A DNA stretch of 64,000 bases from Erodium maritimum (Eukaryota > Streptophyta > Magnoliopsida > Geraniales > Geraniaceae), in assembly GCA_963921825.1 (NCBI GenBank), contig OY997592.1, forward strand, positions 17,611,432-17,675,431, given 5' to 3'. The translations under genes and the position numbers were made by a program. This document shows, one piece after another, positions 13,124 to 54,725 of this stretch (positions within the stretch are counted from its first letter, which is position 1; each line of letters opens with the position of its first letter). Below the pieces are notes generated by a model. That model saw nothing but the letters and a program-made list of their open reading frames with translations. It did not search any database and was not told the DNA's origin.

Positions 13124-16100
13124 TGTCACGCCCCAAATCCGGTTTGACCGAACTCGAGACGTGACTTAAAGAAGTAATCAAATAACGACGTTTGAAGCCA
13201 AATCAGATCAAATGTAAATCCTGAATATTGATTGCGATCAAAATCTCAATACATAAATTCCATACTACTCAAATAAACACCAGGTTCAAAATGAAATGAG
13301 GACCAAAAACATCTCTAACAAAGAAAGCACCCGGACCCACAGAAGCTCCCGAGCCTCGAGTCCACTACTCAACAAGCAAGCCTGTAAAAGACAGTAAACA
13401 ACAAAAGGGGTGAGCTTACGCTCAGTAGGGAAAATCATAAACAGTTTAACCTCCAATTTAGTAGTAAAATTGTCTTAGCAAGACGACACATTTTGCAATG
13501 AATACATTTAATCAATAAGATGCTGTCAACGAGTAAAGGTAAGAACAATAACACATTTTTAAAGGTAACAGTAACTTATGAGAGAATAAATGAAAAGTAC
13601 TGTAAATAGTTGAAAACTACTAGAATGGGAACAAGTAAATATCGCACCAACCACTCAATCCTCAATACTCCGATCCACGAATAGGTTCTTGTGTCATGTC
13701 GGATCCCATACTCCGATCCACAAGATTACTCGTGTCATGTCAGATTTTTCCTCGGTCTAGAGGAGGCACATACGTCGGGCTACCGGTAATATCCCTGAGG
13801 GACACCTATCGTCGGGATTCTCGGAAATGCCTCCAAAGGACCATAAGTCATCGGGAACCGAGATAATGCTCCCGCAAGACGCATATACTCGGGTGAATCA
13901 ACAAGTAACCATTCCCCGTAGGGTAAACCATCCAATGCTCCGCAGGGTCCAATAACCAATGCCCCGCAGGGTAAGCCATCCCCACACCGGAATCCTCAAC
14001 AGTGTGGGTACCATACCGGATCACCAATAATCATCCCCGTAAACCATCCCCACATCGGAATCCTCAACGGTGTGGGTACCATACCGGACCACCAATACTC
14101 ATTCCCGTAAACCATCCCCACACCGGAATCCTCAACGGTGTGGGTACCATAACCAATATCCCGCAGGATCAACCAATCAATGCCCCGCAGGGTCCATAAC
14201 CAATCAATTCAAAGACTCACAAGAGAATAACATACTACACAATCATGGAACAACCGAAGCTCAACAAATCACAATTCCATCACAATACACCAACGAAATC
14301 CATATACCTTTACACTTACCGTTATACTTACCAATCACGATCCATCGGTCCATCGGTCACCCGATCGTACCATTTGGCACAATCAATTACACTCAATTAT
14401 CCATTCAATCATTCAATCATCCAATCATTCAAGCATTCATTCAATCATCCAATCATTCGTTCAATCATTCAAACATACGATTTAGCTAGTTTCAATAGAC
14501 TCTTAAATTATCCTTAAGACTAAGTAAGCAACACATGTGAGGCAACCACAACCAATCCTATGGCTCATCTCGGCCTTTCTACCAGCACGACAATTTCCCA
14601 AGTATTGAAAGCGAGTTAAACTAGTTATTCACATCCTACGCATGCACACTAGACGCGTCCGGTTATTAGTAATTGAAAGACGATTATTCTAGTTATTCGC
14701 ATCCTATATCCAATCTAGGACCCTTCCGATTTTATTAACCTAATAGGCATACTAAGTATTAAATTGCACGAGGAGTTTAGTACTTTCACTACCTTGTGGT
14801 ATTCCTCTAATAATCCTTCTAGTTGCCGGAGTCCAAGTTAGTTTCCTCTCCGTTCTTCGCACGGGTCCCCAAGTAGTCTTCCTCCCTCGAGCTTGGTTCC
14901 AAGGTCTTGGATCACAAACAATACTAAAATTAACAACTAGCCAAAGACGGTTTTCACCCTAATCTACTTCAGAACGCTCTAACTGTAAATCCCGGTTCAA
15001 AAGATCGAATTTGGGCCCAAACTAGGCCCAATTAGGAAAACCCTAGCTTCTGGAAACCTGGCCCGGAACATGGCCCGTTCTGTATCACATACCGGCCCGG
15101 AATCCTAGCCGGAACGTGTCACGGACCGGCCCAGAGCCAGACACGGACCGCGTCCCAGTCCGACCCGATACCAGACACGGACCGCGCGACGCACCATCCC
15201 GGGATCAGACACGGACCGTGCGAGGTGCCGTGCCAGAGCCAGAGCCATTCCGCGCCGCGTACCGTGCCGGTACCCAACCCGTTCCGTGCCGGAACGTGGC
15301 CCTCTCCAGGTGCCATTCCGTACCGAACCAGACCTGTTTCCTCCCTTCTTCCCCAACACGAAAAACTGCAGAAACCCAACAAAAACTCCATTTCCAACTC
15401 CAACAATCTTCAAAACAGTCATCTAAAACCTCCAAACTTCAACACCCTCAATGGGTTCCATCAAAACTTCAACAAAACCAAACTAGACTTTACCAATATT
15501 TCTCCAAAAACAACAAACCACACACAATGAAGCTAGTTCTTAAAGTTCTAACCAAAACCCACAAAAACCCAAAATAAAAGGTAGATGAAATGAGAAGATA
15601 AGAGTATACAAACCTTGAGGATGATGAGATGAAGAAGCTAGTAAGCTTTTGGTGAGGAAATGAGCCCAAAGTTCCTCCCTTTCCTCTCTTTCTTCTTGCT
15701 CAAGATAAGAAGCTCTCTTCTCTCTCTCCCTCTAGCTATGGTCGGCTACAACAATGAGAAATGGCTGAATTGTTTGCTCCTTTTGCCTTAAATGACCTAT
15801 TTGATTGAAAGGACTAAAAGCCCCTTAAGGTCTTATCCTCTTAAAGGCAAATTTGGGAGGGTATAAGAGTCAATGGAACCCCATTTTCATCCTCCAAGAC
15901 ACTAATGAAATGTGTCATAGTGGGGCCACTTTCACTTAAATAAAATCCAGCAGTCCAAAATTATATCGGATTTAGCCGATAAAAAGTTCGAGTTTGACCG
16001 AAAGTTGACCTATCCAATATTACAGTCAAACGAAAGGTAATGGCCCAACTAAGCTAACCGTGATAACGAATAAGCTTTTTGGGCCCCGGAAATGTCCCGA

Positions 16101-31567: not shown

Positions 31568-31693
31568 TGTTAGATATAATATTATCTATTTATAATTTAT
31601 ATTTCAAATGATGTATATCTTGTATTTGAAACAAGATTAACATGTATTTAATCACTTGAAATCAATGAGAAAGGAAGGCAACTTATTCCAACA
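31568..31693 (+). repeat. 5' LTR of Copia element
   Basis: 126 bp, TGTTAGATATAA to TTATTCCAACA. It is followed at once by TGATACCAGAG, in the place of the primer-binding site. Confidence 0.9.
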
Positions 31694-34969: not shown

Positions 34970-36411
34970 GTGATTCGGTCTATGTGGGTTTTTCATCATA
35001 AAAGGTGTTCTGACGGTTCTTTTCAGCGTTATAAAGCTCTTCTTGCAGGTGATGGTCGTTCTCAGCAGGTTGGCGTTGACTGTAAGGAAACTTTTAGCCC
35101 GGTCGTGAAGTCGGCTACTATTCGTAATGTTCTTAGTCTTGTCGTCTCTCAGTCATGGCCTCTTCATCAGTTAGACGTCAAGAACGCATTTCTTCATGGC
35201 AATCTCCAAGAAACAATCTACATGCATCAGCCCATTGGTTTTCGGAGCAAAACTCATCCTGATCATGTTTGCGTGCTGAAACGATCGCTTTATGGTCTCA
35301 AGCAAGCTCCCCGGGCTTGGTATCAACGATTTACGGATTTTGTTTCCACTATTGGCTTTACTCACAGTTAATATGATCATTCATTATTTACATACCGTCG
35401 TGGCCCTGATATTGCGTTTCTGTTGTTATATGTGGACGACATCATATTGACGACTTCGAGTCATGATCTTTGACTCTTTCTTATGGCCTCGCTGAGCTCG
35501 GAATTCGTTATGAAAGATCTTGGTCTGTTATCGTTTTTCTTGGGTATTGCAGTCACTCGACATACTGGTAGGATGTTCTTGTCTCAAAGGAAGTACACTG
35601 AGGAGATTATTCGTCGTGCCGACATCTGTTCTTGCTCTCCGTTCGCAACACCAGTCGATACAAAGGAAAAGTCAGTGGTACCGTCGGCGTTCCATTTGCT
35701 GACCCGACACTTTATCGCAGTCTTGCCGACGCCCTACAATTGCTCCGTTTACTCGTCCGGATATCTCCTATGTTGTTCAGCAAGTGTGCCTTCACATGCA
35801 TGGCCCTCGAGACTCGCATATGGGAGCGCTTAAGCGCATCATTCGCTACCTGTAAGACTCTTCATTTGGGACTACATTTGTATTCTTCACAGATATCAGA
35901 GTTGGTATCGTACACTGATGCTGATTGGGCTGGTTGTCCAGACACTCGCAGATCCACCTCAGGCTATTGCATTTTTCTGGGTGATAATCTAATTTCATGG
36001 TCGTCCAAGCGTCAACATACCATCTCGCGTTCTAGCATTGAAGTAGAGTACAAGTGAGTTGCTAATGTTGTATCTGAATCTTGCTGGCTTCGTAATCTTT
36101 TATTGGAACTCCATTGTCCTTTATCTCGGACCACATTGGTCTACTGTGACAATGTTAGTGCCATTTATCTAGCCGGTAATCCAGTTCAACATCAGCGCAC
36201 GAAACATATTGAACTCGACATTCGTTTCGTCAGAGAAAAAGTTGCTAAAGGACATGTTCGGGTTCTTCATGTTCCATCTCGGTCCCAAGTTACAGACATC
36301 TTTACCAAGGGGCTCCCTCAAGTCCTCTTCACTGATTACAGCCTCTTCACTGATTTCAGGACTAGTCTGAACGTTCTGCCTCCTCCCGCTCAGACTGAGG
36401 GGGTGTGTTAG
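34970..36411 (+). pseudogene. Copia reverse transcriptase-RNase H region
   Basis: The RT part includes QVGVDCKETFSPVVKSATIR, QLDVKNAFLHGNL and the SLYGLKQAPRAWY block, then LYVDDI near 35430. RNase H follows with LVSYTDADWAGCPD and TKHIELDIRFVREKV, ending just inside the 3' LTR. The region is spread over more than one frame, as expected of an old copy. Confidence 0.88.
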
Positions 36412-36531
36412 ATATATTATTATATTTTTATAATTTGTATTTCAAATGATGTATATATTGTATTGGAAACAAGATTAACATGTATTTAATCACTTGAAAT
36501 CAATGAGAAAGGCAAGCAACTTATTCCAACA
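36406..36531 (+). repeat. 3' LTR of Copia element
   Basis: 126 bp, TGTTAGATATAT to TTATTCCAACA, preceded by the purine tract CTGAGGGGGTG. Confidence 0.9.
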
Positions 36532-37138
36532 AAAAAAATATCAAATAAAAATGATGAATTTGGTTTTTTAAAATTAAAAGAAAAATTGAAGCTCCAATAA
36601 CTTCACAAAAGGGGGTTTTGTAAACTTATAATAAAAAAACAATTAAAAATATTATCTCCCTTCTTATTAAAAGCCTCACTTTCAATTTTTTTAAGACTAC
36701 CAATTGTATAGAGGCGGTCTGTTAGGAAAGAGTGAAAGGCGGCGCCGAGAAGGCTGAAAGAGCTCATACCGTGCGCGAGGAGGGGCTGGTCGAGTAGCAA
36801 ACGCCGGTAACAGGGGACCAAGGAAGAGCCACGACAAACAGCGTCAGAGAACCGTAGAAAGGGCACAGCGGTGCAGGAGGATGAAACCAAGGTCGGCGTC
36901 GAGCCCAAACTCCTTCCCTTGTTTCCGATCACTTCCCGAGAGCCTCTGCTATCCAACTCGAGAAATGAGAGGAAGTAGAAGAAGAAAACAGACATTCTTA
37001 CGTATAAGAGAAACGAAAAAGATGTGATTTGTGAGTAATTAAGGGGAAAAAGAGTAATGAGTTTTTGTTTATTTGTATAATTGATATATCTCTTCCAAAA
37101 CATGGTAAAGTCATTTTTTCCCTCTTCTTCAGTTCATC
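36532..37138. other. Unassigned, between Copia and hAT elements
   Basis: AT-rich at first. A minus-strand frame (37103-36603, 166 codons) is the longest, with a hydrophobic N-terminal part and no domain I recognise. It is probably not a gene, though it is the only sizeable open frame here. Nothing else is seen. Confidence 0.35.
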
Positions 37139-37757
37139 CAGGGCCGACCCTATGATTGTTGGGGCCTAAAACGAAAATGTGATCAATAACTTTTTTTCTT
37201 CTGAAATAATATAATAGGAAAATAAGTAAATTTGCTCGTATAGAAATATTACACTAGATGATACTCTGATAAAAAAAATACTAGATGATATTGAGAAAAT
37301 GAGTTTAACCTCTATTTATAACACTAAAAAAATTAAAATGGATGATTGATATTAATTTCTAACAAGACACCCTCGATAATTAAGATTTACCATCTAGAAT
37401 TCTATTGAAAAATCCAAATATTTAAGGATTTACATTCATCCATAAATAAAATATATTCATGTCATGTTCGGATGTGATACATTTAAAATAATTATATATA
37501 CGTGCACTAAATTATCTAGAATATATATGACGTCGTGTATGATTAGCTATTTTCATTATCTTCAACAAATTTCCAGAATTAACAATAACTTCTAAATACT
37601 AAATATATGTTTTAACCATGATCAATCAAATATAACCAAAAATAAGAAAACCATCATAACTTAGATTAACGGCACAAGGTAGCAAGTAAGTGAGAATTTT
37701 CAAGAACTATAGGTATCAAGTATTAAAACAGACCACTTAATAGTATTAAAACAGACC

Positions 37758-37771
37758 ACTTAATCGACAAA
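37758..37771. repeat. LINE target-site duplication, left copy
   Basis: ACTTAATCGACAAA, 14 bp, identical to 51947-51960 after the LINE poly-A tail. Confidence 0.92.
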
Positions 37772-37788
37772 TAAGTATTGCAGACCAA

Positions 37789-39368
37789 ATGTCTCTCTCT
37801 CTGAGGGAAGTTCGAATCGATCGGGATTCTTCAGCCGGCGACTCTGGGACTTGGACACCGGCGGCCAGCACCATCTCAGGCCGGTCTGTCTCCACCCCCA
37901 CACACAGGTGTTCCTCATACCCTCCTGTTCCTAAAGTGGCGTCGATAATCTCCAGATTCGAATCTTCTGCTCGGGCCTCTCAGGCTTTGGTCGCCCTCAA
38001 TAGAAATCATGTACCTCGTTCTCCTTCGCGCTCCTCTGGCCTGCTACACCAGTTGGATCCTTGTAAGCCTTCATCAGCAACTTCCCCCCTCTAGCTAAGG
38101 AACCATGGCTTTATCGTCTTTTCGTTGAACACGGCACGATTACGGGCATTTATCTCAGCCAGAGGTCTGTTACTTCAGGCCGACCCTTCTGTTTTGTTCA
38201 CTCGGACTCGGTTGCTGATTGCTCTAAGATGGCTGCCGCTTCGAATGGCAAACGTTTTGCCATTCAATCTGCTGAAACCATGGCTCCAATTGTGGGTGTT
38301 GTGGTCCCGGATCTGAAATTAAAGGCCTTATCCCGTGCTATTGGGATCTCACATTCTTTCTCTTCACCTGAGGTTCTCCTTCAGACCTTGATCTCAGCTG
38401 GACATCACAACTTCGAATTGAAGAGTTTCGGAAACAGAGTTTTTATGCTCTCCCACACCAATTCGGTGGAGGTTGATTGGACCTCTCTAAACCCTTGGTT
38501 TGACATCGTTCGTGCCACTGGTGAACTCTTCACGCAGCCAGGTTTTGTCCACTGGGTTTCAGTTACTGGTATGCCGGTCCAGGGCTGGAGCTTGGAGAAC
38601 TTCACTCCGATTGGGAAGACTTTTGGGGATGTTTTACAAGTTTTAAGAAATGACTTTGAAGGTTTTTATGTTCTGGTGCATTCAATCTCCCGTCTCTCTG
38701 CAAAGTCGGTTTCTTTTAGCTTAAATGGCGAGAGTTTTGATCTTTGGGCTGAGGCAATTCAGACCTCCCTCGTTCCCCTGCCTGTGCGTCCCCGGAGAAT
38801 TGTTCCATCGGTTACTTCTTATGAATCGTCGGACTCGTTGCCGGAGAATCTTGTCGCAGACGCGCGTGGAGATAAGGTCGATTTGAATTCCAATTTGAAT
38901 TCCGAACCTGATATGGATCGATCTCCCCTATCCTCTAAAGACTTCCACGAGTTTGAGGACTCTTTTTTGGGCTCTAGAGATAATGTTGTTGTCCCTGAAT
39001 CTGATTTGGGCCTATCTGCGATCCCTCTCGCCTCACACCCCTCGGTTCCTGGTTTGCGTGGTGCGCACGGCACCCCTTTCTCTCGCAAGAGGTGCACAGC
39101 ATCTGCCCAGAAGTTCTTCCATGTTTTTGGCCCGTCCAAACCCTCAACTTCTGGATCAGCTTCTTGTTCTGGTAAGTGGAATTATGTTAAGAAACTGGGC
39201 TTCAAGGCGTTAGCAATTGGGGGAGAAGTTAAGGAACAGTTTGAGAACTTGGACGCCGAGGTCTCAGGGCATCTTCAGCTCGAAGACAACGATTGTTCAG
39301 AGCCTGCGCTGAACTCTGGTGGTGGCACTCCACTTCGGATTGCTTCCACACCCCATAACTCGGATTGA
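37789..39368 (+). pseudogene. LINE ORF1 (DUF4283-like nucleic-acid-binding protein)
   Basis: The frame opens with MSLSLREVRIDRD at 37789 and shifts once near the C6 run at about 38085. After the shift it reads PPLAKEPWLYRLFVEHG and on to MAAASNGKRF (38229) and the stop at 39366-39368. The middle, with WVSVTGMPVQGWSLENF and IGKTFGDVL, is typical of plant LINE ORF1 of the DUF4283 type, which binds element RNA. No CCHC knuckle was found in the visible part. The stop is followed 2 bases later by the ORF2 ATG, normal spacing for a bicistronic LINE. Confidence 0.8.
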
Positions 39369-39370
39369 GC

Positions 39371-41393
39371 ATGAAGCTCCTATCATGGAATGTGAGAGGA
39401 GCGGGCTCTCCTCACAAGAGGAGAGATATTAGAAGAGTACTTCTTCTTCTCCGGCCCGATTTTGTCATGCTTCAAGAAACAAAGGCGACTGATATTACGG
39501 CTGGCTTTCTTCGTGACTGTGGATTGTTCTTAGGTTGGGAATTTGTCTTTATTCCATCCGATGGTGCTTCAGGGGGGTCTTATCAGCTTGGAAATCTTCT
39601 GTTTTCCGCCTCACCCTCTCCAATCCGGTTGGTACTGCTTTAGTTTGGTCTGGCACCTATCTCCCCACGGGTTCTGCAATAACTCTTCTCAATGTCTATG
39701 GTCCATCGACTCCGTCAAGTCGCCAATCTCTTTGGGAGAAATTGATTGCTGATAGAGCTTCCCTTGGTGATGACTTAATAGCAGGGGGCGATTTTAATTC
39801 CGTCTTACGCCCCGAGGAGCGTCGCAACTCTGTTTCTTTGGCTAGTGATTGTGCCATTTTTGCTGATTTTCTGCAGCGTATGGAGCGTGTCGACATTAAT
39901 CTCTCCGGCTCGAAGTTCACATGGTATGGTGGTGGATCAAAGGCTTCACGCCTCGACCGGTTTGTTTTATCCCCTCCCGTTCTCATCCTTTTTGGAGCTC
40001 TGTCACAACAGAGTCATCCTCTCTCTTTGTCTGACCACCGGCCGGTCACCCTGTCTTCCTCCGACGTCAATTGGGGTCCTAAGCCTAGGCGATTCCTAAA
40101 TGTTTGGACGGAACATAAATTCTTCTTGACAGACGTTCGGGCTTTCTGGAACTCTTATACCTGCCAAGGATTTGCGAGTTATGTTCTTTGGTTCAAGCTA
40201 AAGTGTCTGCGTAACGACTTGCAGAGATGGAGCCGAGAGGTGTTCGGACGGGTGGACCTCGAGGTCGAAGATCTAGCAGCTGAGATCGATTCTTTTGATG
40301 AGGTTTTGGACGACCGGGAATTATCAGGGGAGGAATGTGTATCACGGTCGTTGGTTCGTGTTGCCTTGATCCGCAAGCAAAAGGTGTTGGCTCGAATTTG
40401 GAGTCAAAAGGCTCGTTTACGCTGGCATAAATTTGGGGATGTTTGCTCCCGTTTCTATCATAAGATTGCCAATCTCCGAGCTTCAAGGAACAAAATTCAC
40501 CAGCTCCGTTCGAGTTCTGCTATGCTATCTGAGCCTATAGATATCCAAAACCATGCTGCAGCTCAGTTTAGCACTCGGTTCTCGAAACTGGCAGGAATTC
40601 GTGTCCCACTCCCACAGCTCCCTTTCGCCAGGCTCTCCGGTTTTCAGGCATCTTTTTTGGAGGAGCCTTTCTCATCTGAGAAGATTTTCGCAGCTATTTG
40701 TGACTGTGGTCCTGAAAAGGCACCTGGCCCTGATGGTTTTTCTATGCACTTTTACAAGGTCTGCTGGGATATAATCAAGGTTGACCTGCTTCGATTTTTC
40801 TCTGCATTCTTTGTTTCAGGTACCATAGGAAAAGGGTTGAATTCTACTTTCCTCACCTTGATCCCCAAGATTCGAAATGCTGACAGAATACAGGACTTCA
40901 GGCCTATAAGTCTTATCTCAGGCCCTTACAAGATACTAGCAAAAGTTCTTTCTAATCGCCTCCGCCAAGTTCTGAATGATGTAATCAGCGATCCTCAATC
41001 AGGTTTTGTTGCAGGCAGGCAGCTAGTTGATGGGGTCCTGATTGCTTCAGCGAGTATTGATCTTGTCCGTCACACTGGTGAGGAAACAGTTGTCCTAAAA
41101 CTTGATTTTGAGAAGGCTTTCGATAAGGTCAATTGGGACTACATTGAGGAGGTGATGGTGGCTATGAACTTTGGCCCGACCTGGTGTTCTTGGATGGCTT
41201 CTTGTTTTCGAGCTTCTTTAGCAGTTCTAGTGAACGGATCGCCAAGCCGTGATTTCCCTATACTTAATGGAATCCGGCAAGGTTGTCCCCTCTCCCCGTT
41301 TATTTTCCTGATTGCTGCTGAGGGACTACATCAGGTTCTTGAGGAGGGTATCCGGTTGGGAGAATTCTCTGGAGTTCGGGTCGGCTCCACAGG
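39371..41393 (+). pseudogene. LINE ORF2, first part: endonuclease and RT fingers
   Basis: Start MKLLSWNVRGAG at 39371. The APE-type endonuclease motifs are NVRG, QETK, NVYGPS, GGDFN and SLSDHRP; it nicks the target DNA. A frameshift lies at the G6 run near 39571-39576. RT follows with PGPDGFSMHFYK, LIPKI, DFRPISL, the SGFVAGRQ motif, LKLDFEKAFDKVNW (first catalytic D) and NGIRQGCPLSPFIF. The frame is cut after GVRVGSTG at 41393 by the Gypsy and resumes at 50220. It acts with ORF1 protein in target-primed reverse transcription. Confidence 0.92.
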
Positions 41394-42482
41394 TGTCACG
41401 CCCCAAATCCAGTTTTGACCGGACTTGAGACGTGAATAGAATTTGTAAAGAAAACGATAAATAGCAATTATAAACCTTTTAAATAGACAAGTAAATCTCC
41501 TCAAATCAGCAAATAAAAGTTCAGAAACTCCAGTGAGTCACAGCTCAACAAGTAAAGTAATAAGCAAACGTTTAGTGCGACGGTTAACATAAGTCTAAAC
41601 TAAAACCCAAGATCACGGAAGCTCCCAAGCCTCTGCTCTCTAGACATCAGATACTTCTGTAAAACAGTAAGAGAAACAAAGGGGTGAGCTTACGCCCAGT
41701 AGGAAAAACCTTAACAATTCACCCTCGGATCAACATTATACTAAGTAAACGGATGACTTAAATAATAGTCAACACGACCACAATGAAATAAAGCGTAACA
41801 ATATAGAATAAGATAAGTACGCTGAGACAATAGACAAATGAAATAGAATAAGATAAATACGATGAAAGAAAGTATAACTAAGATGGAATACGATAGACTC
41901 GTACTCTCGAAAATAACATTAACTTGAAAGGTTCCATAACAGAATTAACATAAGGTATCATAACGACAAAATGGGAGTAATTGTTATTACGCCAACCACC
42001 TGCTTTCTCAAGCCTCCGATCCATGAATAGAATTTAGTGTCACCTCTGTCCCCATACTCCGATCCACTAAAGTATTCATATCATATCGGATTTTCCCTCG
42101 GTCCGGAGGGAGACATATATATATATATCGGAGTACCGGACACCATCCCATAGGGATGCTCGTCTTCGGTATTCTTGAACGTGTCTCCAGAGGACCATAA
42201 TCATAGGGAACCAAGGTAGTGCTCCCGTAGGACGCATACCATTGGGTGAAACCTCAGAACCCAACTCTCATGAAGTAATCTCATCAATATCCCGTAGGAT
42301 CAGCCGAGCCATAGGCTCCTCACATCACTCAATATCCCCGTAGGATCTGCCGAGCCATAGGCTCCTCACGTCACTCAATATCCCGTAGGATCTGTCGTAG
42401 GATCTGCCGAGCCATGGGCTCCTCACGTCACTCAATAACCACTGCCTCTGTCAAACTCCAACCACCACAACGGCACCGGATT

Positions 42483-42518
<36 letters not shown>

Positions 42519-44366
42519 TAGTTCCAAACCAAGTAACAAACAGACGAACCAATAAACAAACATAGATTTCAAGAATAAGAATAAAGGAACAAGTATTTCA
42601 TTCATCCATCAAGTAACACACGTCGGAACACCCTTTCATCACAACCAATACTGTTTCATACTTACCGTGCACTTACCTGTCACCAACCATCGGTACATCG
42701 ATCACCTGATTGTACCCCTTTGGCACAATCAGTCATACTCGATCATCCGTTCAACCGATAATTATAGCAACATAAACACTCAATCAATTAAATAAGTACT
42801 CAACCATACAACAGCATGTGAACGAATAAATAGACACTCAATAAGAGACGCTAATCTAGTTTCATTAGACCCTTAAGATAACCCGACACTATCAATCAAG
42901 CATGTGAACCTAGCACACAACTAATCCGAGAGCTCTTCACAGCCTCTCTACCAGTAAATCAAGTTCCCAAGTATTGAAAGCACACTTCACTAATTGTCAT
43001 CGTCCTAAGCATGCATACTAGACTCATCCAATTATTAGTAATTGAAATACGATTATTCTAGTTATTCGCATCCTATAGGCAATTCTAGGACCTTTCCGAT
43101 TTTATTATCCTAATCATGCATTCTAAGCGGTAATTAAGTAATTAAGGCTTTCCCTACCTTGCGGTCTTCCTACGAACAAATACTCCTATCAACAGTTGTC
43201 CGGCTCGCCTCGTCACCTCGGCGAAGTCCCAGCTACAAATCTGGGTTTACACACAAACGATCCAAAATCAGATCGGGTCCAGATTACCCAGTTCTTTAAA
43301 TTAAAAGTTCTTCATTTCCTTTAATTACACCGATTAATCCGATAAAAGTCCGACTTAGTCTCAAGTGTCGTTTAAATCAGTATTAAAATTAATTAAACGA
43401 GTTTGTCCAAACGGTCCGTATCCGATCCAGTCCCGGAGTCAGGCCCGAGTCCGGACCCGAAGTCCAGAGTCAGTCCGGGCCATGGCCAAGACCAGATTCG
43501 AGCCTAAGGCCCAATCCAGTTCAGGCCGAGGCCCAACTGACTCCGGGCCCGAGCCCAAGGACTCGACCTTGACCGGTCTGAGCTGGGAACGACGCTGGCC
43601 GGGCTAGGGTTCCGACGAATCCGGCGGCGGCGACGACTACCAGACGGCGGTTTTGGTGTCGGGAGTTCAGGAAGACGATGGGAAGGGTGGCTGCGCGTGT
43701 TTCGAGCCCTCAGTGGCCGGATCTGACGACTGAGAGCTCGTCGGCGCGCGAGTTCCAGATCTGGAACTCGAACGCTCCGGCGACGGCCTCCGGCGTCATC
43801 CGACCTCCCTCGAGCTCAAAAATCGCAGATGCCGGCGTAGAAGGGACGGGGAGAGAGATTCTAGCTAAGGTGTAGCTCACCTTTGACGGATCTCCTCGGA
43901 TTAGGTTCGGCGGAGCTGGGTTTCGACGTCGGGTTCGCGAATCGAAGACGGAGAGAGGAAGTGGAGGGTATCTGGTGTTTGGGTTAGGGGTAGACGAAGA
44001 AGAAGAAGGCGTGGAGGAAGCATAGAACGGCGGGGGAAGGAGCTCGGCGAGGCCGACGGAGACGGGGAGAAGAACGGCGACGACCTTCGTATGGTACGCG
44101 AAGCTGAGAGAGCGAAGGGAGAGGGTGGGTGAACAGTGCCGCGTCTAGGGTTTCTGTCTCCTTCTATAGACGAACCGAGTGACTGCGTGGGCTGGGCTTG
44201 TGAAAAAGGGCCGCGCGGTGTCACAATTGGGCCTGAGCTGGCCCATCCCGAGCTCGGCCCAAAACTTCTGATCCTCTCCTTTAAAAAAAACACATTTGAT
44301 GCAAAAACAACCCCCCAAGTAATGGTTCGCACTTTAATACCCTTTTAAACCAAACTGGGTTTTACA
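41394..44366 (-). repeat. 3' LTR of Del/Tekay-like element (LTR-g)
   Basis: 2973 bp, TGTCACGCCCCAAATC on the left, AACTGGGTTTTACA on the right. Most like LTR-d. It contains a tandem array at about 42280-42440 (units with CCGTAGGATCTGCCGAGCCA) and a 31-base C run at 42484-42514. Confidence 0.9.
42484..42514 (+). repeat. Homopolymer, 31 C
   Basis: Uninterrupted C31 (G31 on the minus strand) within LTR-g. The corresponding part of LTR-d lacks it. Such a tract could fold as G-quadruplex or i-motif, and its length in the assembly is uncertain. Confidence 0.95.
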
Positions 44367-44382
44367 GTCTACCCCCCTTAAA
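44367..44382 (-). other. Polypurine tract of Del/Tekay-like element
   Basis: On the minus strand this reads TTAAGGGGGGTAGAC, next to the 3' LTR start TGTAAAACCC. It is the primer for plus-strand DNA synthesis, and it fixes the element's direction. Confidence 0.85.
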
Positions 44383-44417
44383 GAAATTTCGTCCTCGAAA
44401 TTTAAAGCAGACATACC

Positions 44418-47400
44418 TCAAGTGTCAAACAGGTGGGGATACTTCTCCCGGATCTCGTCCTCACGCTCCCAGGTCGACTCAGCCCCCTGGTGCCTCCACT
44501 GTACTCGTACCAAAGGGATAGTCGTCTTCCGCAAGACCTTCTCTCCTGTATCCACAATCCTGACGGGCTGCTCCTCATACGAGACATCATCTGCCACCTC
44601 GATGTCCGCCCACTCGATCACATGTGATGGATCTGCCGTGTACTTCCGCAGTTGGGATACATGGAAAACGTTATGCACGTTCCCAAGCTGCGGTGGCAAG
44701 GATAGTCGATAAGCTACAGCTCCAATCCTCTCTAAGACCTCAAATGGTCCAATGAAGCGCGGGGATAGCTTTCCTCCTCCGCGGTTGAATCGTAGTAGGC
44801 CCTTCTTCGTGCTCACCCTCAGAAATACGTGGTCTCCGACCAGGAACTCAAGTGGTCTACATCGTCGGTCTGCATAACTCTTCTGGCGACTCTGTGCGGT
44901 CTTCAGCCGATCTCTGATCAAGGTGACCTTCTCTGTCGTCTCTCGGACCATGTCCGGTCCCAGTAAGTTCCGATCCCCTACCTCAGCCCAACACACCGGC
45001 GACCTACACGGTATGCCGTACAAAGCCTCAAATGGTGCCATACCAATGCTGGACTGATAACTGTTGTTGTAAGCGAACTCTGCCAAGGGTAGATGATCCT
45101 CCCATGATCCCTGAAAGTCAAGCACACAAGCTCGAAGCATGTCTTCCAAAATCTGAATGGTGCGCTCTGACTGTCCATCTGTCTCAGGATGGTAAGCTGT
45201 ACTCAACAGTACTTCAGTCCCCAAAGCCTTCTGTAGGCTCTTCCAGAATCTGGATGTGAAACGAGGGTCTCTATCAGATACTACTGACACCGGTACTCCA
45301 TGTAGACGAATAATTTCCCTGACGTACAACCGTCCCAACATGTCCACAGTATCCGTCATCCTCATAGCTAGAAAATGTGCCGACTTGGTCAGTCGATCAA
45401 CCACAACCCAAACGGCATCATGTCCCTTGGACGACCTCGGTAATCCACTCACAAAATCCATAGTCACATGTTCCCATTTCCACTCGGAAATTGGTAAAGG
45501 CTGTAGCAAACCAGCAGGACGCAGATGCTCCGCCTTCACCTGCTGACAGGTAAGACACCTCGAAACAAAGAGTGCAACTGCCTTGCGCATCCCCCTCCAC
45601 CAGAACTGCCGTCGGATGTCTCTATACATCTTGGTGCCACCGGGATGCACTGCAAGTCGTGAGTGGTGACACTCTCTCAACACTGTGTCCTTACAATCTC
45701 GGGGTACAAACAACCGTCCCCTAAACCGAAGTCCCTGATCTGCACTCAACTCCCAATCATCGATCTTCTCTCCAGCTACCAGTCTCCCACGAATCCCCAT
45801 CGCCTCAGCATCCTCGGTTTGTGCCTCTAGCACCCGAGTAAGCAAAGTGGGTTGAGCCACCAATGCACATAAGGCCATACCATCTGTGACCTCCTCAAGG
45901 TCAAGTCGAAAAGAGCTCAGCTCCTCCAGCATGTTCCACTCTCGGACTGCCATGCTGGCCACACAATGAGTCGACTTCCTGCTCAGGGCATCTGCGACGA
46001 CATTCGCCTTGCCCGGATGGTAGAGCAGCTCGAAGTCGTACTCCTCAAGTAATTCCATCCATCGCCTCTGGCGCATGTTCAGGTCGCGCTGAGAGAAAAT
46101 GTACTTGAGGCTCTTGTGGTCTGAGAACACTCTAAACTGCTCACCATACAGATAGTGTCTCAAACTCTTCAATGCAAAAACTACTGCTGCTAGCTCGAGA
46201 TCATGGGTCGGGTAGTTGCGCTCGTGCACCTTCAACTGCCTGGAGCCGTAGGCAACTACCTTCCCTGACTGCATCAGAACACACCCAAGTCCCTCGCCTG
46301 AAGCGTCACAATAAACGTCATAGCCCACTCCTCGCTTCGGAACAATCAACACTGGAGCAGTGGTCAGACGAGCCTTTAGCTCTGAGAACGAATGCTCACA
46401 CTCACTAGTCCAAAGGAACTCTGCTCCTTTCCGAGTCAAAGCTGTCATAGGTGCAGCCAAACGTGAGAAGTTCTGAACAAAACGTCGATAATAACCGGCC
46501 AACCCAGAAAACTACGGATCTCAAACACGTTCTTGGGCCTCGCCCACTTCGAAACTGCGTCGACCTTTGCTGGGTCAACTAAGATGCCATCACGGGACAC
46601 TACGTGTCCGAGGAATTTCACCTCTGCAAGCCAGAATTCGCACTTCTCCAGGTTCCCATACAGCTGGTGAGTGCGTAACAAGGTCAACACTATCCTGAAG
46701 TGTTCCTCGTGTGCCTCTTCGCTAGGCGAGTAGATCAAAATGTCATCAACGAAGACTACGACAAACTGATCCAGGTAAGGTCTGAATATGCCATTCATCA
46801 AGTCCATGAAGGCTGCTGGCGCGTTCGTCAGTCCGAACGGCATCACTAGAAACTCAAAATGTCCGTAGCGCGTCCGGAACGCGGTCTTCTCCACATCTTC
46901 CTTCCGGACCCTCAACTGATAGTAGCCTGATCTTAGATCAATCTTGGAGAAACATGTCACTCCTCTCAATTGATCGAACAGGTCGTCGATCCTCGGCATC
47001 GGGTAGCGGTTCTTCACCGTCACCCGGTTTAGCTTCCGATAGTCGATGCACATCCTCAAGGTGCCACCCTTCTTCTTCACGAAGAGGGCGGGTGCTCCCC
47101 ACGGTGAGACACTAGGGCGGATGAAACCCTTCTCCTGTAACTCTTCGAGTTGGCGCTTCAACTCGACCAACTCGGCTGGCGCGAACCGATAAGGTGTCAT
47201 CGAGATCGGTGCGGTGCCGGGGATCAAGTCGATCCGGAACTCCAACTCGCGTGCCGGCGGTAAACCTGAAAGTTCCTCCGGGAACACGTCCGGAAACTCA
47301 CATACTACTCTCGGTAGATCTCTGCCACGTCGTACAACCTCAGACTCCACTCCCGTAGACAGAGCGGATAGAAGGACTCCGCTCCTGCTACCCAAAACAC

Positions 47401-47857
47401 AAGTAATAACTCTGCCGCCTGACCTCACCGTCACCTGACGTCGAAAGCAATCGATCGTCGCCCGATATCTCGCAAGCCAATCCATACCTAAGATCACGTC
47501 GAAAGCAGTCATCTCCAGAACGAGTAAGTCACCGACGAAGGGGCAATCTGCCACTCGAACCTCACAGTCTCGACGGAAAGTGTCCAACACTACTTCCCCC
47601 GTAGCTGGGGTCTCAAGACACAAAGGGCTACTAAGGGACTCCACCCTCAAACCCAAAGAACGAGCAAAAGAAGCAGAAATAAACGAATGGGATGCACCAG
47701 TATCGAACAGAAAAGACGCCCACGAATGGAAAAGTAAACACGTACCCTGCGTAGTCTCATGGCCGGCGTACCGTCCCTCAGCTCTAGCATCTGCCACTGC
47801 ATACACTCGCCCCTCTTGTGCCGGTGGTCCTCCTCTCGGTGGTGGTGGTAACGCCAC
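44418..47857 (-). pseudogene. Chromovirus pol: protease, RT, RNase H, integrase, chromodomain
   Basis: Order on the minus strand: aspartic protease with [11 protein letters not shown] (about 47690), RT with [32 protein letters not shown] and FVDDILIYS (about 46740), RNase H with YCDASGEGLGCVL (about 46310), integrase zinc finger with H-H-C-C ending CLTCQQVKAEH (about 45540), core with DFVSGLPRS, VSDRDPRF and AYHPETDGQSERT, then a chromodomain ending HQGAESTWEREDEIR (about 44440). Chromodomains steer integration towards chromatin marks. The region spans more than one frame. Confidence 0.92.
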
Positions 47858-47889
47858 CTGCTGCTGAGGCCTAGCCTGGTGTCTCGGGG

Positions 47890-49066
47890 CTGCCGCTCAC
47901 GCCGCCTGACGCGGAGCTCTCTGCTGCAGTGCCGGTCGTGGTCGGCCGGGAGGTGCCGGACGAGGCTGTGTCGGATGGGGCCTCGGTGGATGTGCAGCTC
48001 CAACCCGCTCGGGACAAGTGAAAGCAATGTGCCCCTGACGGCCGCAATGGTAACAAGTCCGGTCCTCAACGCGCTGTCTCTCACCAAACTCCCGTGGACG
48101 ATCCATCTGTCGCTCTGCTGATCCTCTGCCCCTTGGGCAGTCTCGGGCCAAATGTCCCTGCTGTCTGCATGTAAGACAGACCTGTGTCAACGGAGCAGGT
48201 CCAACTGACTCCACTGCTGCTCCTCTACGCATACCACTCTGCTGAAACTGTGGCTGGAAGTACCCATAAGTCCTCTGTAGTCTAGTATCACGCCTCTCTG
48301 CTGGCCTGAGGAAACCACTCGGCCTCGGCCTGACGTCTCGCTCACTGGCAGTCTCCTCAGTCTGTACCATCTCGGGCGCGTAGAGGGAAAAGGTTAAGAA
48401 CCTCGCCGCATACTCAGCCACTGTCATCCCCCTCTGCCGCAGATCCATGAACTGTTGGCGTCGATCATCCCGAACTGACCGCGGAAAGTACTGCTCCAAG
48501 AACAGTCGACTGAAAAGCTCAAAATCCTCACCAACTCTGGTCTGCACAGACTGCCACCAGTAAAAAGCCTCACCCTCAAGCTGGAAAGTGGAGAAGGAGA
48601 CTCTCCGACGTCCCTCAAAAATGCCGAACGTATCAAGGTTGCGAGTGATCCGCTCCAACCATAAAACTGCTGCCTCGGAGTCAGCACCCCCAGAGAAAGT
48701 CGGTGTACCCAAACGACGGAAATCACGAAGCGCCAGAGCTGTGTAGCTATCCATCTGTCTTGGCCTCTCGACGGCGACCGTCTCAGTAGCAGGCACGGGC
48801 TCTGTCGCCGGTGCTGTGGCCTCCTACTGAGCACTGAGTGCTGCTAGCACTGCGCGTACCACCTCATCAATAGGGGTAGCCCGAGTCGGCTCTGCGACTG
48901 GAGTATCTCTCACTGGTGACCCTGATGGCCCCTCCTCAAAGCTCTGGTGCTCTGTGGAAGTAGCACCTTGGGCGCTAGCTGGCCCTGCCAATCCAACAGC
49001 TGGCGACTGGTTCTGTCCCAAAGCTGGGCGACTCATGGTACCCCTCGGGACGTAAACGGGAGGCAT
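47890..49066 (-). pseudogene. Chromovirus gag
   Basis: Likely start MPPVYVPRGTMSRP at 49066. Capsid-like part with FRRLGTPTFSGG, FYWWQSVQTRVG and FLEQYFPRSVRDDRR, then two CCHC knuckles, CLTCRQQGHLARDCP and CYHCGRQGHIAFTCP, followed by a proline/arginine-rich tail. The gag remnant at 10.5-11.9 kb is a close relative. It is not open throughout. Confidence 0.88.
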
Positions 49067-50219
49067 CTCGAAAGATCGCTGCAATAGCACGTACAATTCA
49101 ACTCAGTTTAAAACAAACGAAACGATTTAAGCAAAATGGGCGTCCTCGAACGTCTCAACAGATCCTAATTGGATCGAGGGTAAGTAGATAAGTCGTATAT
49201 AGTACTTATATAGGCACAGAAGTCCGCACATTGTGCGTCTCACCCAGCAAACAAGTAATGCAACCAACTCCCATAGGAGGCAAAGTTCACGCACAACTGT
49301 ACCCATCACTAGGGTCTCAAAGTGCGAAGCAAATAGTGTGGAATTAAGTCCTCAATTCTTTTATCATAGGCTTTCTCTTTTTCCAATTTCCTTATCTTTT
49401 ACCCAAAATAATTAAGTAGATCTCGCATCGTTACAACTTGATTCAGGCGTCTCCGAACCTCGCTGTAACCACTTGACATCCAATCATCACGTTTGACTAC
49501 AGTGGCGCCCTGAGTCAACCCGTGACAGAACAACCCATCTAGTTTTACAGAAAATTCGGCATGACCTATTCGTATTTTCCACTAATCATCTGTTTAAATG
49601 AGACATTTTACCAAATCAAATTTCACAAGTTATTCAATACAAAGAGTTCTCAAGCTTTGCAAAGTATGCACACAATCAAAAGGGTGCAAGAATACCCGAG
49701 TTCCAGATCTTTTCAACTTTGATTCTTTAAACAATTCTCAACACTCAAACAATTTCCCAAAATCTTAACATTCCAATCCTTCCTTAAGTTCACTATTTGA
49801 TCACTCCCCATTCCGACAAGTCACAATCCACTAACTCCAATCTCCCACGCCATTAACCCTTCAATCAACTAATCCCTTCAACCTTAACAACACGAAAGAC
49901 TCACACGGTGGTAACACGCTCGGCATAGAATTTGCTCAACAATAAACAATACGGTTCTATCCTTGCTTGTTAATCCAATACCGATCTCAACCATTTGGTT
50001 TCCCCGATCACTGCACCTTACAGGCCATAGGGTAAGGATATTTCTCAAGCGATGTAATCAATGCAAACTAAAGATTTAAATTTGAACAAATCAGTAAGAC
50101 TCGAGTCGTTCTCACTCTATGCATTAGTGTCTTTCACCTGCATCACTGAGTATACGACTTAGACCTCCTAACTCTACCCACCTAGCTGACGTTGGTCCGA
50201 GTTTTTTTTGAAAACAAGG

Positions 50220-51861
50220 TCCTATCATCTCTCACCTACAGTTCGCAGACGACACCCTCCTCTTTGTGCAAGGATCCGAGAATGATCTTTTAAGACTCAA
50301 GAGCACCCTCCTTACTTTCCAATTCAGCTCGGGACTGAAGATTAATTTTGAGAAGTCCACTGCTATCTTATTGAATGCTAGGACCTTGTGCACGGACTCG
50401 TTGGCTTCGGCTTTGGGGTGTTTGGTTGGCTCATTACCAATCAAATACCTTGGTTTTCAATTGGGAGCTAACCCGAGGCGTTTGGCTTTTTGGGAACCTG
50501 TTATCCGGAAATTCAAGGAATCCCTTGCCTTGTGGAAGACAAAGGATCTTTCCATGTCTGGAAGGCTAGTCCTGATCAAGTCCACTCTCTCGGCATTACC
50601 CATCTTCTTTATGTCGCTATTCAAGGCTCCAAAGGGGGTCATAAGGGAACTCGAAGCCTGGAGTAGACGGGTTGTTTGGCACAATAGAGCCCGGTGTTCT
50701 GCAAGGTTAGATGGTCCAATGTCTGTAAGACAATGGCTGAAGGTGGCTTGGGTATTCAGGGTTTGGAAAGGGTGAATAACAGCTTGCTAGCGAAATGGTT
50801 CTGGCGTTTCGCTTCTGAAAAAAGACTCTCTATGGAAGCAGGTTTTGTGTGCCAAGTTCGGCTGGGATCAGAATGAATGGGACCTCACAGCACTCGACAA
50901 ACCAGGTTCCTCCTTCCTCTTTAGTCACATTATGGCCTTGTCTGCAGGGCAACCTTTCAGGAACCTCTTTGGGAACCAGAGTCTTCATTGGAAGCTTGGA
51001 AAGGGGGACCGCATTAGATTCTGGCAAGACATTTGGGTTGGTCCTTTGGCCCTTCGTTATCGCTTTCCCCGTCTTTATCTTATTTGCATAGGGAAGTGGC
51101 TACGAGTTGGGGAATTATGGTCTGATGGTACCTGGCACCTGATCTATCGCCGTACCTTCTTGTTCTCATACGAATGGGATGACTCGGCTCTTTCAATGGA
51201 GCTCCTTGGCACGGTTTCGGTCCGTCCGGCTCTTCCTGATTCAGTCACTTGGTCACAGAGAGAAGTTGGTTTCTCCTCTGCCTCTGCTTACTTGTTGCTA
51301 TCAGATTCTGACCCTACTCCAGTTTCTTGGGCTGGTATTCTTTGGGTCAAGAACCTTCCGCCCAAGTATAGCTCCTTAGTATGGTTATTAGCTCACAACG
51401 ATGTCCCTACTAAGGTCTTTCTGGAGGAAAGGGGTATACGAGTTTCGATTCAGGACATGCTCTGCAATTTGTGTTCCCTGATTTTTGAGGACTCCTCTCA
51501 CCTGTTCTTGCACTGTACATATGCTTGGCATTTTTGGTCGAAAGTCTATGTCTGGTGGTCACTTGTTTGGGTAGTACCGGGAGACTGCGTATCCTGTTTG
51601 TTTGCTTGGAGAGGGCTTAATAGCAAGAGATGGTGGAAGGTTTGGGTCAAGGTAGCTTATCTGTGCTTCTGGCACATTTGGCTGCAGAGGAATTCTGCAG
51701 TATTCAGGCAGCAGTTTGAGCCCGTTGAGGCAGTTTTTCTTAGGTTGCAGACACACAGCTACAGTGTGTGCAAAATGGCGGGGGATCTTCTTGAAGGGGC
51801 TAGCTTATGCACTTGGATAGCTTCTCCGTCTCTCTGTTTTACTTGTGCTCGTAGGAGCTAA
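50220..51861 (+). pseudogene. LINE ORF2, second part: RT catalytic site to zf-RVT
   Basis: The frame resumes as GPIISHLQFADDTLLF; the FADD catalytic codons are at 50242-50253. Then come GLKINFEKS and YLGFQLG (RT thumb), a frameshift near 50690, AEGGLGIQGLERVNNSLL, a second frameshift at the A6 run near 50816, and a long C-terminal part (50845-51861) with the zf-RVT zinc-ribbon-like segment LWVKNLPPKYSSLVWLL ... CNLCSLIFEDSSHLFLHCTYA. It ends in CARRS at 51861. The last 340 residues are uninterrupted. Confidence 0.92.
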
Positions 51862-51933
51862 TCTGTTATAGGTTGTTTTATTTCTTTGGAGTTTATTTTG
51901 GGGACTCATCCCCTTGGCTTTGTAAAATTTATC

Positions 51934-51960
51934 AAAAAAAAAAAAAACTTAATCGACAAA
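51934..51960 (+). repeat. LINE poly-A tail and right target duplication
   Basis: A run of 14 A is followed by CTTAATCGACAAA; the last A of the run is shared with the duplication ACTTAATCGACAAA (51947-51960). Confidence 0.92.
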
Positions 51961-53169
51961 ACCAAAATAAGACAAGCCCAACACATTCTTATGATTACCT
52001 CATCGTATATGCCCAAGTTCATTTAATTGTTGTTGCTCTCTAAAAATTAAAGACACTTAGAAACGAACTCGTGTTTATTGATCCTTTTGATTTTGGACTA
52101 AGAAATTAGAAACTACGAATCATTCATGTTCATGGTTTCTGGTATTTCCTCTCTGTTGAACATCTTCACGTCAACGATTGGGAATCAACTTCATCTTCTA
52201 TGAGTGAATCATTTACCAAGAGTATGGATAGTAGAACTCCATGTGATAGGTACATAAAGCCAACTCTACTTATCATCTTGTTTAATCATGAAATGAAACT
52301 TTTGTAATACCTCTTTTATTTCAATAATTTTAGAAGAGGTTATCTTTCTCTTGACTTGCACTTTGGTCAAGTTAATCTTGTTTTCTTATAGAACCTTTAA
52401 GTTTATAGTGTATATAAGTACCCCCGAGTTTCAACATTATCGAACCCAATGAGACTCAAGCTTTTATCTCATAAACAATTTATGGATTATTTTTCGATAA
52501 ATTATCATGTTTTTTACTACATATTTTAGTACAAACCAAAAACATTTTAGTACCAATTATTTATATTTGATATATAGGATTCATGTGTGGATGCATATTA
52601 AGGGAAGTATGAAATATTAAATCAACACTTACTGATTTTCTCATTTGGTTGTTTCACTTTTTTTTCTCTCATCAAATGCTTGTATTTAGTATTGGAGCCC
52701 CCGAAAATTTGACAGCTTACTTTTTAATATAAAAATCCACACTTTTTTCTTTGGTTTTGATCCATTCGTTTGTTTGATACCTCTATTTAATTCACTAGTA
52801 TACTGAACTTGCATGTTTTGTTTCGTTATCGATAATTTTTCGCTACTAATAAAGATCCATAAAGTTGGTAGAAGTTTCAACAATCAAGAAAAATTGTGTT
52901 CCTTTTAGATGAGAACTATTTTTTTCTATAAAACCAATTTGAATCGAGATCAAAATTGGTCCACCTAGCATTAAAATTTAATTTCAAAATTAGAACATAA
53001 ATATTTTCGTTTGATTAGGTTTGATCAAATACTAACAAATTCTTAATTTTATTTGGTCTTTTTTCGACCCAAGGCCTTAAACGGTTGATTATTAAATTTT
53101 ATGAGGCATTTTCAATATGAAGCCTTGAACGATTGCTTAACTTGCTTTAAGCTTAAGACGGCCCTGAGT

Positions 53170-53220
53170 TCATCATCTGGGTGAAAATGTGGAATGCACA
53201 CATTTTCACCCGGATGATGA
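53170..53220. repeat. 22-bp stem hairpin with 7-base loop
   Basis: The arms 53170-53191 (TCATCATCTGGGTGAAAATG...) and 53199-53220 are inverted copies with one mismatch; the loop is GAATGCA. A short ATG/GAT repeat follows (53214-53230). The hairpin overlaps the right target duplication of the hAT-like element. It could be a tiny inverted-repeat element or a chance palindrome. Confidence 0.85.
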
Positions 53221-53285
53221 TGATGATGATAATGATCATGCATTGCAGACCAAAACCCAACAATAATGATACTATTAAATGGTAG

Positions 53286-54725
53286 GTGATCACAGATCAC
53301 CATCTACATTTCTTCTTATTGACTTGTATTTTGCAAGCGGTCGTTGTTGCACAAGTTGGTCGTCGGCCTCGGAGGAACGGTAAGTTCGTAGAACAAAAAG
53401 ATGAGGTTTTTGTTAATGGTTTACCTTTCGAAGCATCGGAAGAATGGAATCTTAATGTGTTCAGTCCATTCGGTACGATTGTGTTCGTTAAAGTTCCCAA
53501 ACGTCCTAGCCGAAGCCATCGATACTTTGGTTTTGTTCGCTTTGATTTAGAAGGTGCAGCGGCTAAGGCAATTGAGGTTTTGAACGGGTTTAAAATCGAC
53601 GGGTACATGTTATTTGTTGCCACGGCTTGGCATCGCCGGACATCAGCAGCTCCGATGACGGAATCTAGTACGCCAAGGGGGTGCTCTGTTTTCGGTGGTC
53701 CGAAACAGAGCATCCAAGGATTGCCAGTTTAGCGAATCACAAAGGATGTTCAGGGCTATCTGGAGACGCAAGTTTCTAGCGGGGCGGTGATAGGTGTCGG
53801 AGACTCGCCGGAGAAGCTCTGTCACGGCGTGGATCGTTTGAATTCAAATCCCGCGTCTGTTACGGGTGAGTTTGAAATGGATTGCAATCGTGATTATGTT
53901 TTTGTTTTAGTTGATTACGCTGGATTTAGGGAAGGTGATGCCCTTGATTATGGGGATAGAGGTTGCGCTGATACTGGGATGACGGAGGACGATGATGATG
54001 CTGTTGGGGTTCAAGATGGGCATGTTGTTGCAGATAGGCCTGTGTATACGGGCCTGTTCCACATCATGTTGCAGATGGGCTTGCTCTAGTATACGGGCCT
54101 GCTCCTCAGAATGGTGCAGACGGGCCTGCTCCAATATACGAGCATGTTCCACAACATGTTGAAGACGGGCCGGTTCTAGCCCAACATTTGCAGCTGCTTC
54201 AGTCTGGTCAAGACTCGATCACATGTTTTGAAGCAACTTTGGGTGTGGCAACGTTTCAAGCGTCTCAGAAGGCGGACTCTTTGTGGAAGGATGCCCTTGT
54301 CAAGAAGCGGGAGAGTCGTCCCCCTAAGCATTTAACGGACTTATACTCTTTGTCGTGCAAGCCAAATATCTCTAGAGATCGGGATAGGTATGTTCGTCCC
54401 GTCGACATTGGGAAACAGGTTGAGTAAGTTAGAAATGGAGAAACTCAAGGCGTAGTGTCGTCTCAGGGTCCCGACGCATGAAATGCAATTCGTGAGTTGG
54501 CTGCCAAGAAGAAGACTACGACTATCCGTCGTTGACAGGCGAGGGTTTCTTTTTTCTGTTTTTGCTCCTTGTGTTTTCTTTTTAGAAAAGGCTTGGCCTT
54601 TTGGTTCCTCTTGCTGGAACTCCTTTGATCGTTGGTTGCCAACCTGCTTCTTTTTGAAACAAGACTTTCCGATTCCTTTTCTGAAATCGGTCTTTCTAAT
54701 AAATTTTCGAGCTTTTAAAAAAAAG
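53286..54725 (+). pseudogene. RRM-protein fragment, copy 2 (LINE ORF1-like)
   Basis: The first frame (to 53732) has a basic start RRPRRNGKFVEQ, then an RRM: RNP2-like EVFVNGLPF, NVFSPFGTI, RNP1-like YFGFVRF and VLNGFKIDGYMLFVA. RRMs bind single-stranded RNA. The reading then changes frame and continues with acidic segments (FEMDCNRDYVFVLVDYAGF, TEDDDDAVGV), three 45-bp repeats, and a tail VKKRESRPPKHLTDLYSLSC to 54427. A pyrimidine-rich stretch, an AATAAATTTT word (54698-54707) and an A8 run end it. The 3' end looks like a retrotransposed copy, and BNR-type plant LINEs carry an RRM in ORF1. No ORF2 is present. Host gene remnant is the alternative. Confidence 0.65.
54045..54179 (+). repeat. 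Three 45-bp tandem repeats in the RRM ORF
   Basis: Units 54045-54089, 54090-54134 and 54135-54179 are each exactly 45 bp and begin TATACG. In the frame that leads into the tail they encode 15-residue units of the pattern YGPxPxxxxDGxxxx, such as YGPAPQNGADGPAP. Confidence 0.9.

Follow-up and report, generated by a model that had tools for sequence, protein, structure and literature searches.

How does a Ty3/Gypsy element come to reside in a plant chromosome with a single LTR? The question is raised by a stretch of Erodium maritimum DNA in which such an element lies inside a LINE, itself lying inside a hAT-like transposon. The window, meaning here the whole stretch of DNA analysed, is 64 kb long (C5:17611432-17675431) and comes from an assembly of 763 Mb in 40 contigs, in which C1 to C9 measure 62.6 to 158.6 Mb. 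Its features are collected in Table 1, and they form a genuine three-level nest within one stretch of plant chromosome.

Table 1. Features of the nest, in window positions, with strand and supporting evidence.
Feature	Position	Strand	Evidence
8-bp target duplication AGTTCATC, left copy	37131..37138		exact repeat in window
hAT-like left part, CAGGGCCG end, one LINE target-duplication copy included	37139..37771	+	genomic copies, ends
23-bp tandem duplication (37719-37741, 37742-37764), LINE 5' flank	37719..37764		7/7 relatives read without duplication
14-bp LINE target duplication, 5' copy	37758..37771		exact repeat; empty site in relatives
Extra ~17-20 nt between 5' target duplication and first relative-matched LINE base	37772..37788	+	start of relatives' match
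LINE before Gypsy: ORF1 38229-39368, ORF2 from 39535	37789..41393	+	ORFs; Pfam: endonuclease, reverse transcriptase
Single-LTR Ty3/Gypsy element; right edge somewhere in 50216-50218	41394..50218	-	LTR and junction comparison
3' LTR, 2973 bp, TGTCACG...TTTTACA on + strand	41394..44366	-	LTR comparison
pol ORF: RNase H, integrase, weak chromodomain	44418..46502	-	ORF list, Pfam
pol ORF, other frame: protease, reverse transcriptase	46445..47857	-	ORF list, Pfam
gag ORF, zinc knuckles	47897..48796	-	ORF list, Pfam
Junction: internal Gypsy runs straight into LINE ORF2, without 5' LTR and primer-binding site	50202..50225		sister and LINE comparison
LINE after Gypsy: ORF2 remainder (zf-RVT), 3' end, A run; first base somewhere in 50217-50220	50217..51946	+	Pfam, LINE relatives
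14-bp LINE target duplication, 3' copy	51947..51960		exact repeat; empty site in relatives
hAT-like right part, CGGCCCTG end	51961..53166	+	genomic copies, ends
8-bp target duplication AGTTCATC, right copy	53167..53174		exact repeat in window

The hAT-like element and the LINE

The ends, the target duplication and the genomic copies show the outermost level to be a hAT-like, non-autonomous element, with AGTTCATC as its insertion site. Its terminal inverted repeats, CAGGGCCG at 37139 and CGGCCCTG at 53159-53166, are similar in most relatives read, and short inverted repeats of the CAGGG type are a trait of the hAT superfamily, as are target duplications of 8 bp. An earlier note on this DNA had described identical 8-bp flanks at these ends; the 8 bp were found exactly twice in the 64-kb window, abutting the inverted ends both times. 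With the guests subtracted and one target copy kept, the element measures 1839 bp, compared to 1863 bp for a copy on C3 and 1963 bp for one on C2. Whether the ends of genomic copies coincide with 37139 and 53166 had been set beforehand as a refutation test, and many do: matches to the left part (633 bp) start at query base 1-4 in 33 of the best 40 of 1030 candidates, and matches to the right part end at base 1204-1206 of 1206 in 26 of 74 matched pieces, the window being included in both counts. Among seven other copies with readable ends, the duplication agreed at 8/8 positions in three (L006/L022, L099/L100, L101/L102), 7/8 in two (L004/L027, L097/L098) and 6/8 in one (L095/L096), while none was present at L002/L026, the closest relative. 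Left out of this count were L103/L104 and L105/L106, with misplaced or truncated left ends, and L005/L023, with a damaged one. This last relative (C7:20329846-20333838) is 3993 bp long and carries ~2.15 kb of extra internal sequence, and its reading frames reach 228 aa. In the window copy no frame exceeds 65 aa, meaning that this copy is non-autonomous.

In 7/7 left-end relatives read (L002-L008), the left and right parts are contiguous, with a LINE-empty site between them, which makes the 14-bp LINE duplication a sound one. The repeat, ACTTAATCGACAAA, occurs exactly twice in the window, with its second copy 3' of the A run, as expected from the duplication and poly-A previously proposed. Traits of the L1 type are present, namely a 3' A run combined with a target duplication of variable length, and an endonuclease (PF03372, 29.0 bits, cut-off 24.5) together with a reverse transcriptase (PF00078, 96.2 bits) in ORF2, whose zf-RVT domain (PF13966, 65.3 bits) is found past the Gypsy element. 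No Pfam family was matched by ORF1. The two ORF2 blocks past the Gypsy element, 50266-50775 and 50845-51861, are in one common frame, so that ORF2 contains a stop at 50773-50775. LINEs insert by target-primed reverse transcription, and an L1-type LINE would have entered the hAT-like element in this way, producing the 14-bp duplication.

At the 5' end, the match to LINE relatives starts at query base 18-24 at ten places and at base 31 at one, the remaining of the 48 pieces starting further in or being second pieces. The ten starts place the beginning of the LINE proper at ~37789-37795, keeping in mind that BLAST may trim ends. For the extra nucleotides before it, the likeliest source would be transcription starting upstream, to judge from full-length human L1, where 5' extra nucleotides are attributed mostly to an upstream transcription start in the available part of PMC2912911. 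Two templated origins were considered separately and found unconvincing: one from the hAT-like flank, with a score equalled in 72 of 5000 shuffles, and one at 53242, where 53242-53254, just outside the hAT-like element, matches 37777-37789 over 13 exact bases (ATTGCAGACCAAA).

As for the surroundings of the nest, a search with 36543-37138 for the outermost empty site matched only the window itself in the best 40 of 1005 candidates, which came mostly from a repeat in the first part of the query, a situation where a lone match could be missed. Further left, 35800-36542 is the end of another multi-copy repeat, and the 126 bp at 36406-36531 are repeated at 31568-31693 with 94% identity. On the right side, relatives of the flank start only at 53192. 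An inverted repeat (53170-53220, 88% over 51 bp) starts within the right hAT-like target duplication, and its left arm seems to be local, judging from three C3 relatives (5.10-5.14 Mb) whose sequence begins only at 53192. Beyond it, an ORF at 53286-53732 encodes an RRM domain (PF00076, 50.1 bits) within a multi-copy repeat, and is perhaps an RRM-type LINE ORF1; segments 53334-53836 and 54283-54724 co-occur at many genomic places.

The Gypsy element in LINE ORF2

The third level is a Ty3/Gypsy element, shown to interrupt LINE ORF2 and to lie on the opposite strand. Eleven other LINE loci were examined; the insertion site is spanned by 10 of them (L072 starts further in), and all 10 are empty and uninterrupted. 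The LINE frame runs on across the element, as the earlier note had claimed. Locus L064, whose LINE is 95% identical, reads CCACAGGTCCTATC, which corresponds to the two Gypsy flanks of the window joined together. No LINE base was lost at the insertion.

If the three levels were chance neighbours, without any nesting, exact duplications would not be expected at their borders: by our own arithmetic, the probability of a chance match at two given points is ~1.5e-5 for 8 bp and ~4e-9 for 14 bp. The insert-free sites in relatives refute this explanation for the LINE and Gypsy levels, no supporting point was found for it, and we consider it practically negligible. The three identities and the order put forward in the earlier note hold, with relatives now displaying the empty site for the LINE and Gypsy levels, and we are nearly certain that the hAT-like element arrived first, the LINE second and the Gypsy element third. 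K2P distances to the nearest copy found, 0.057 for the hAT-like element, 0.050 for the 3' part of the LINE and 0.026 for the first 1778 bp of the LTR, agree with this order but would not prove it. Dating by LTR pair is ruled out, as the Gypsy element has no such pair; in two two-LTR sisters, LTR-LTR distances are 0.023 and 0.014. The nest is useful as a clean record: its host elements have sequenced empty-site relatives, which makes the junctions readable to the single base.

Pfam detects gag, then protease, reverse transcriptase, RNase H and integrase in the Ty3/Gypsy order, in separate ORFs, the integrase core (rve) scoring 29.7 bits, under its cut-off of 32.6. Of the label chromovirus given previously, the Gypsy identity stands, and the chromodomain is weak (Chromo PF00385 after the integrase, 16.7 bits, E 0.0073, cut-off 25.1). 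The pol region is split into two ORFs of different frame, so this copy is now decayed. Elsewhere in the window, 10542-14806 is a remoter copy of a similar Gypsy element (71-74% in the longer matching pieces), with an LTR edge at 13124 adjoining a primer-site motif at 13108.

The 3' LTR is complete, with its canonical terminus TGTCACG at 41394 and its TTTTACA end at 44366 next to the polypurine tract. LTRs come in pairs of ~3 kb in this family, and no second one was detected by self-comparison, short words included, nor did 44367-53166 give any LTR match at E up to 1. The window copy has neither 5' LTR nor primer-binding site, and ~30 bp beyond the latter are missing too. The earlier note had overlooked these absences, as well as that of a normal target duplication. 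We read 30 loci at this junction (window included), out of the best 40 of 1837 candidates. In 29/29 other loci, the primer-site motif followed by the LTR is found at this point, with altered bases in a few. The family order is GAAAACAAGTTC, some 20-30 bp, GGCTCTGATACC (complement of the primer-site motif, which we take to be of the initiator-Met type) and the LTR edge TGTCACG; at the same point the window reads GAAAACAAGGTCCTATC, then directly LINE. The T run beside the junction counts 8 residues in the window versus ~4 in the sisters. Among 20 further LTR edges read, 5 adjoin the primer-site motif and 15 lie at an outer flank, where solo and 3' LTRs are indistinguishable from this one edge.

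The target duplication of the family is 5 bp long in 6/6 testable copies: ATTAG and AAACA for two two-LTR copies, GAGCT, GGTTT, AAAAT and AGCGG for four solo LTRs. Within the 11 LTR loci considered (L010-L020), L011 and L016, being 5' LTRs with one outer edge, and L018, whose right edge was not found, gave no test. In the window, AGG (3 bp) is the longest repeat that can be read, and two of its bases belong to the element as well.

Origin of the single LTR

The reading we favour, with a probability of roughly 0.55, is that the Gypsy element entered as an unfinished cDNA that had stopped before the primer-binding site, with its only good end integrated and the other joined by the host. In Ty3, according to the available part of PMC5371799, a tRNA at the primer-binding site primes the minus strand, which moves to the RNA 3' end before being extended; the plus strand starts at the polypurine tract and has to be transferred later to the opposite end of the minus strand. 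By the scheme given there, a cDNA that stalled before reaching the primer-binding site would lack the same part as the window copy does. Minus-strand synthesis would have stopped ~30 nt before this site; plus-strand transfer would then have had no acceptor, leaving a complete 3' LTR and a 5' LTR that was presumably never made. Integrase would have trimmed and joined the sole complete LTR end, and host end-joining would have attached the other with an overlap of 1-3 bp. In most sisters a 3-nt spacer separates the LTR from the primer-binding site; it is absent at the edge of the window LTR, which would be consistent with trimming by integrase.

The main competitor starts from a complete insertion, with two LTRs and an ACAGG duplication, followed by a ~3-kb deletion that extended from the 5' LTR through the primer-binding site and ~30 bp further. 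Deletions by illegitimate recombination are frequent in plant LTR elements, the 2-bp overlap AG at the junction could have served end-joining, and the copy has decayed anyway, with pol in two frames. The difficulty lies in the right breakpoint. Since no LINE base is missing and the repeat is shorter than 5 bp, it must have fallen inside the 5-bp duplication, which by our own estimate would happen about once in 600 if breakpoints were random over ~3 kb. We hold such a deletion only tentatively, as the less probable of the two. Misassembly, or a more complex rearrangement (gene conversion, for instance), is improbable: long repeats may collapse during assembly, but collapsing two LTRs would leave the primer-binding site and its neighbouring bases in place, and would not rebuild the LINE to the exact base.

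Several points count against a stalled cDNA. Such a copy was seen once among the 30 loci read, the model rests on one junction, the run of 8 T at this junction is unexplained, and the target is changed far less than is usual in the retroviral one-ended events compared below. We found no report of a plant one-LTR insertion ascribed to stalled reverse transcription among the titles and abstract openings listed, in a search where subscription journals were little covered. We would give even odds to the statement that the inner Gypsy element is what remains of a reverse-transcription intermediate that stalled: a one-LTR cDNA, halted before the primer-binding site and inserted by integrase via its single good end. 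If true, plus-strand transfer would be dispensable for chromosomal entry, and part of the one-LTR elements currently labelled as decayed would have been born with one LTR. With junctions readable to the base, the element offers a testable case of incomplete-cDNA integration: should further copies be found whose 5' ends cluster just before the primer-binding site, annotation pipelines would be mislabelling some one-LTR elements as decayed.

Comparison with known systems

Nested transposable elements in plants typically display ordered insertions, target duplications and an older element that is not reduced. The present nest is like them in its order, its duplications and the absence of loss, and differs only by its one-LTR inner element. 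Nests of this sort are commonplace in plants, and the single-LTR inner element is the part that deserves a specialist's attention. The Gypsy copy may belong to a Tekay/Del-like lineage. Long LTRs are known in Ty3/Gypsy elements such as rice Retrosat2, where they exceed 3.2 kb in the available part of PMC3485330. Shared with this type are LTRs of ~3 kb, TG...CA ends and the order of pol domains, as well as the primer-site motif in the sisters; the window copy differs in having a 3' LTR only, no primer-binding site and a target repeat of at most 3 bp.

With full-length human L1, as described in the available part of PMC2912911, the LINE shares a few additional nucleotides that separate the target duplication from the start of the element, in a different host. 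A parallel to the unfinished cDNA comes from retroviral proviruses which, in the portion of PMC5041404 at hand, have one normal end and another that is often truncated and joined by the host. In those one-ended events host repeats are usually much larger, or host DNA is deleted; host DNA being usually more altered there, a simple equation with the Gypsy element is disfavoured. A normal end and a truncated, host-joined end are thus common to both, as far as that portion goes, whereas here the integrated molecule is a retrotransposon, the recipient is a LINE, and the target is almost intact.
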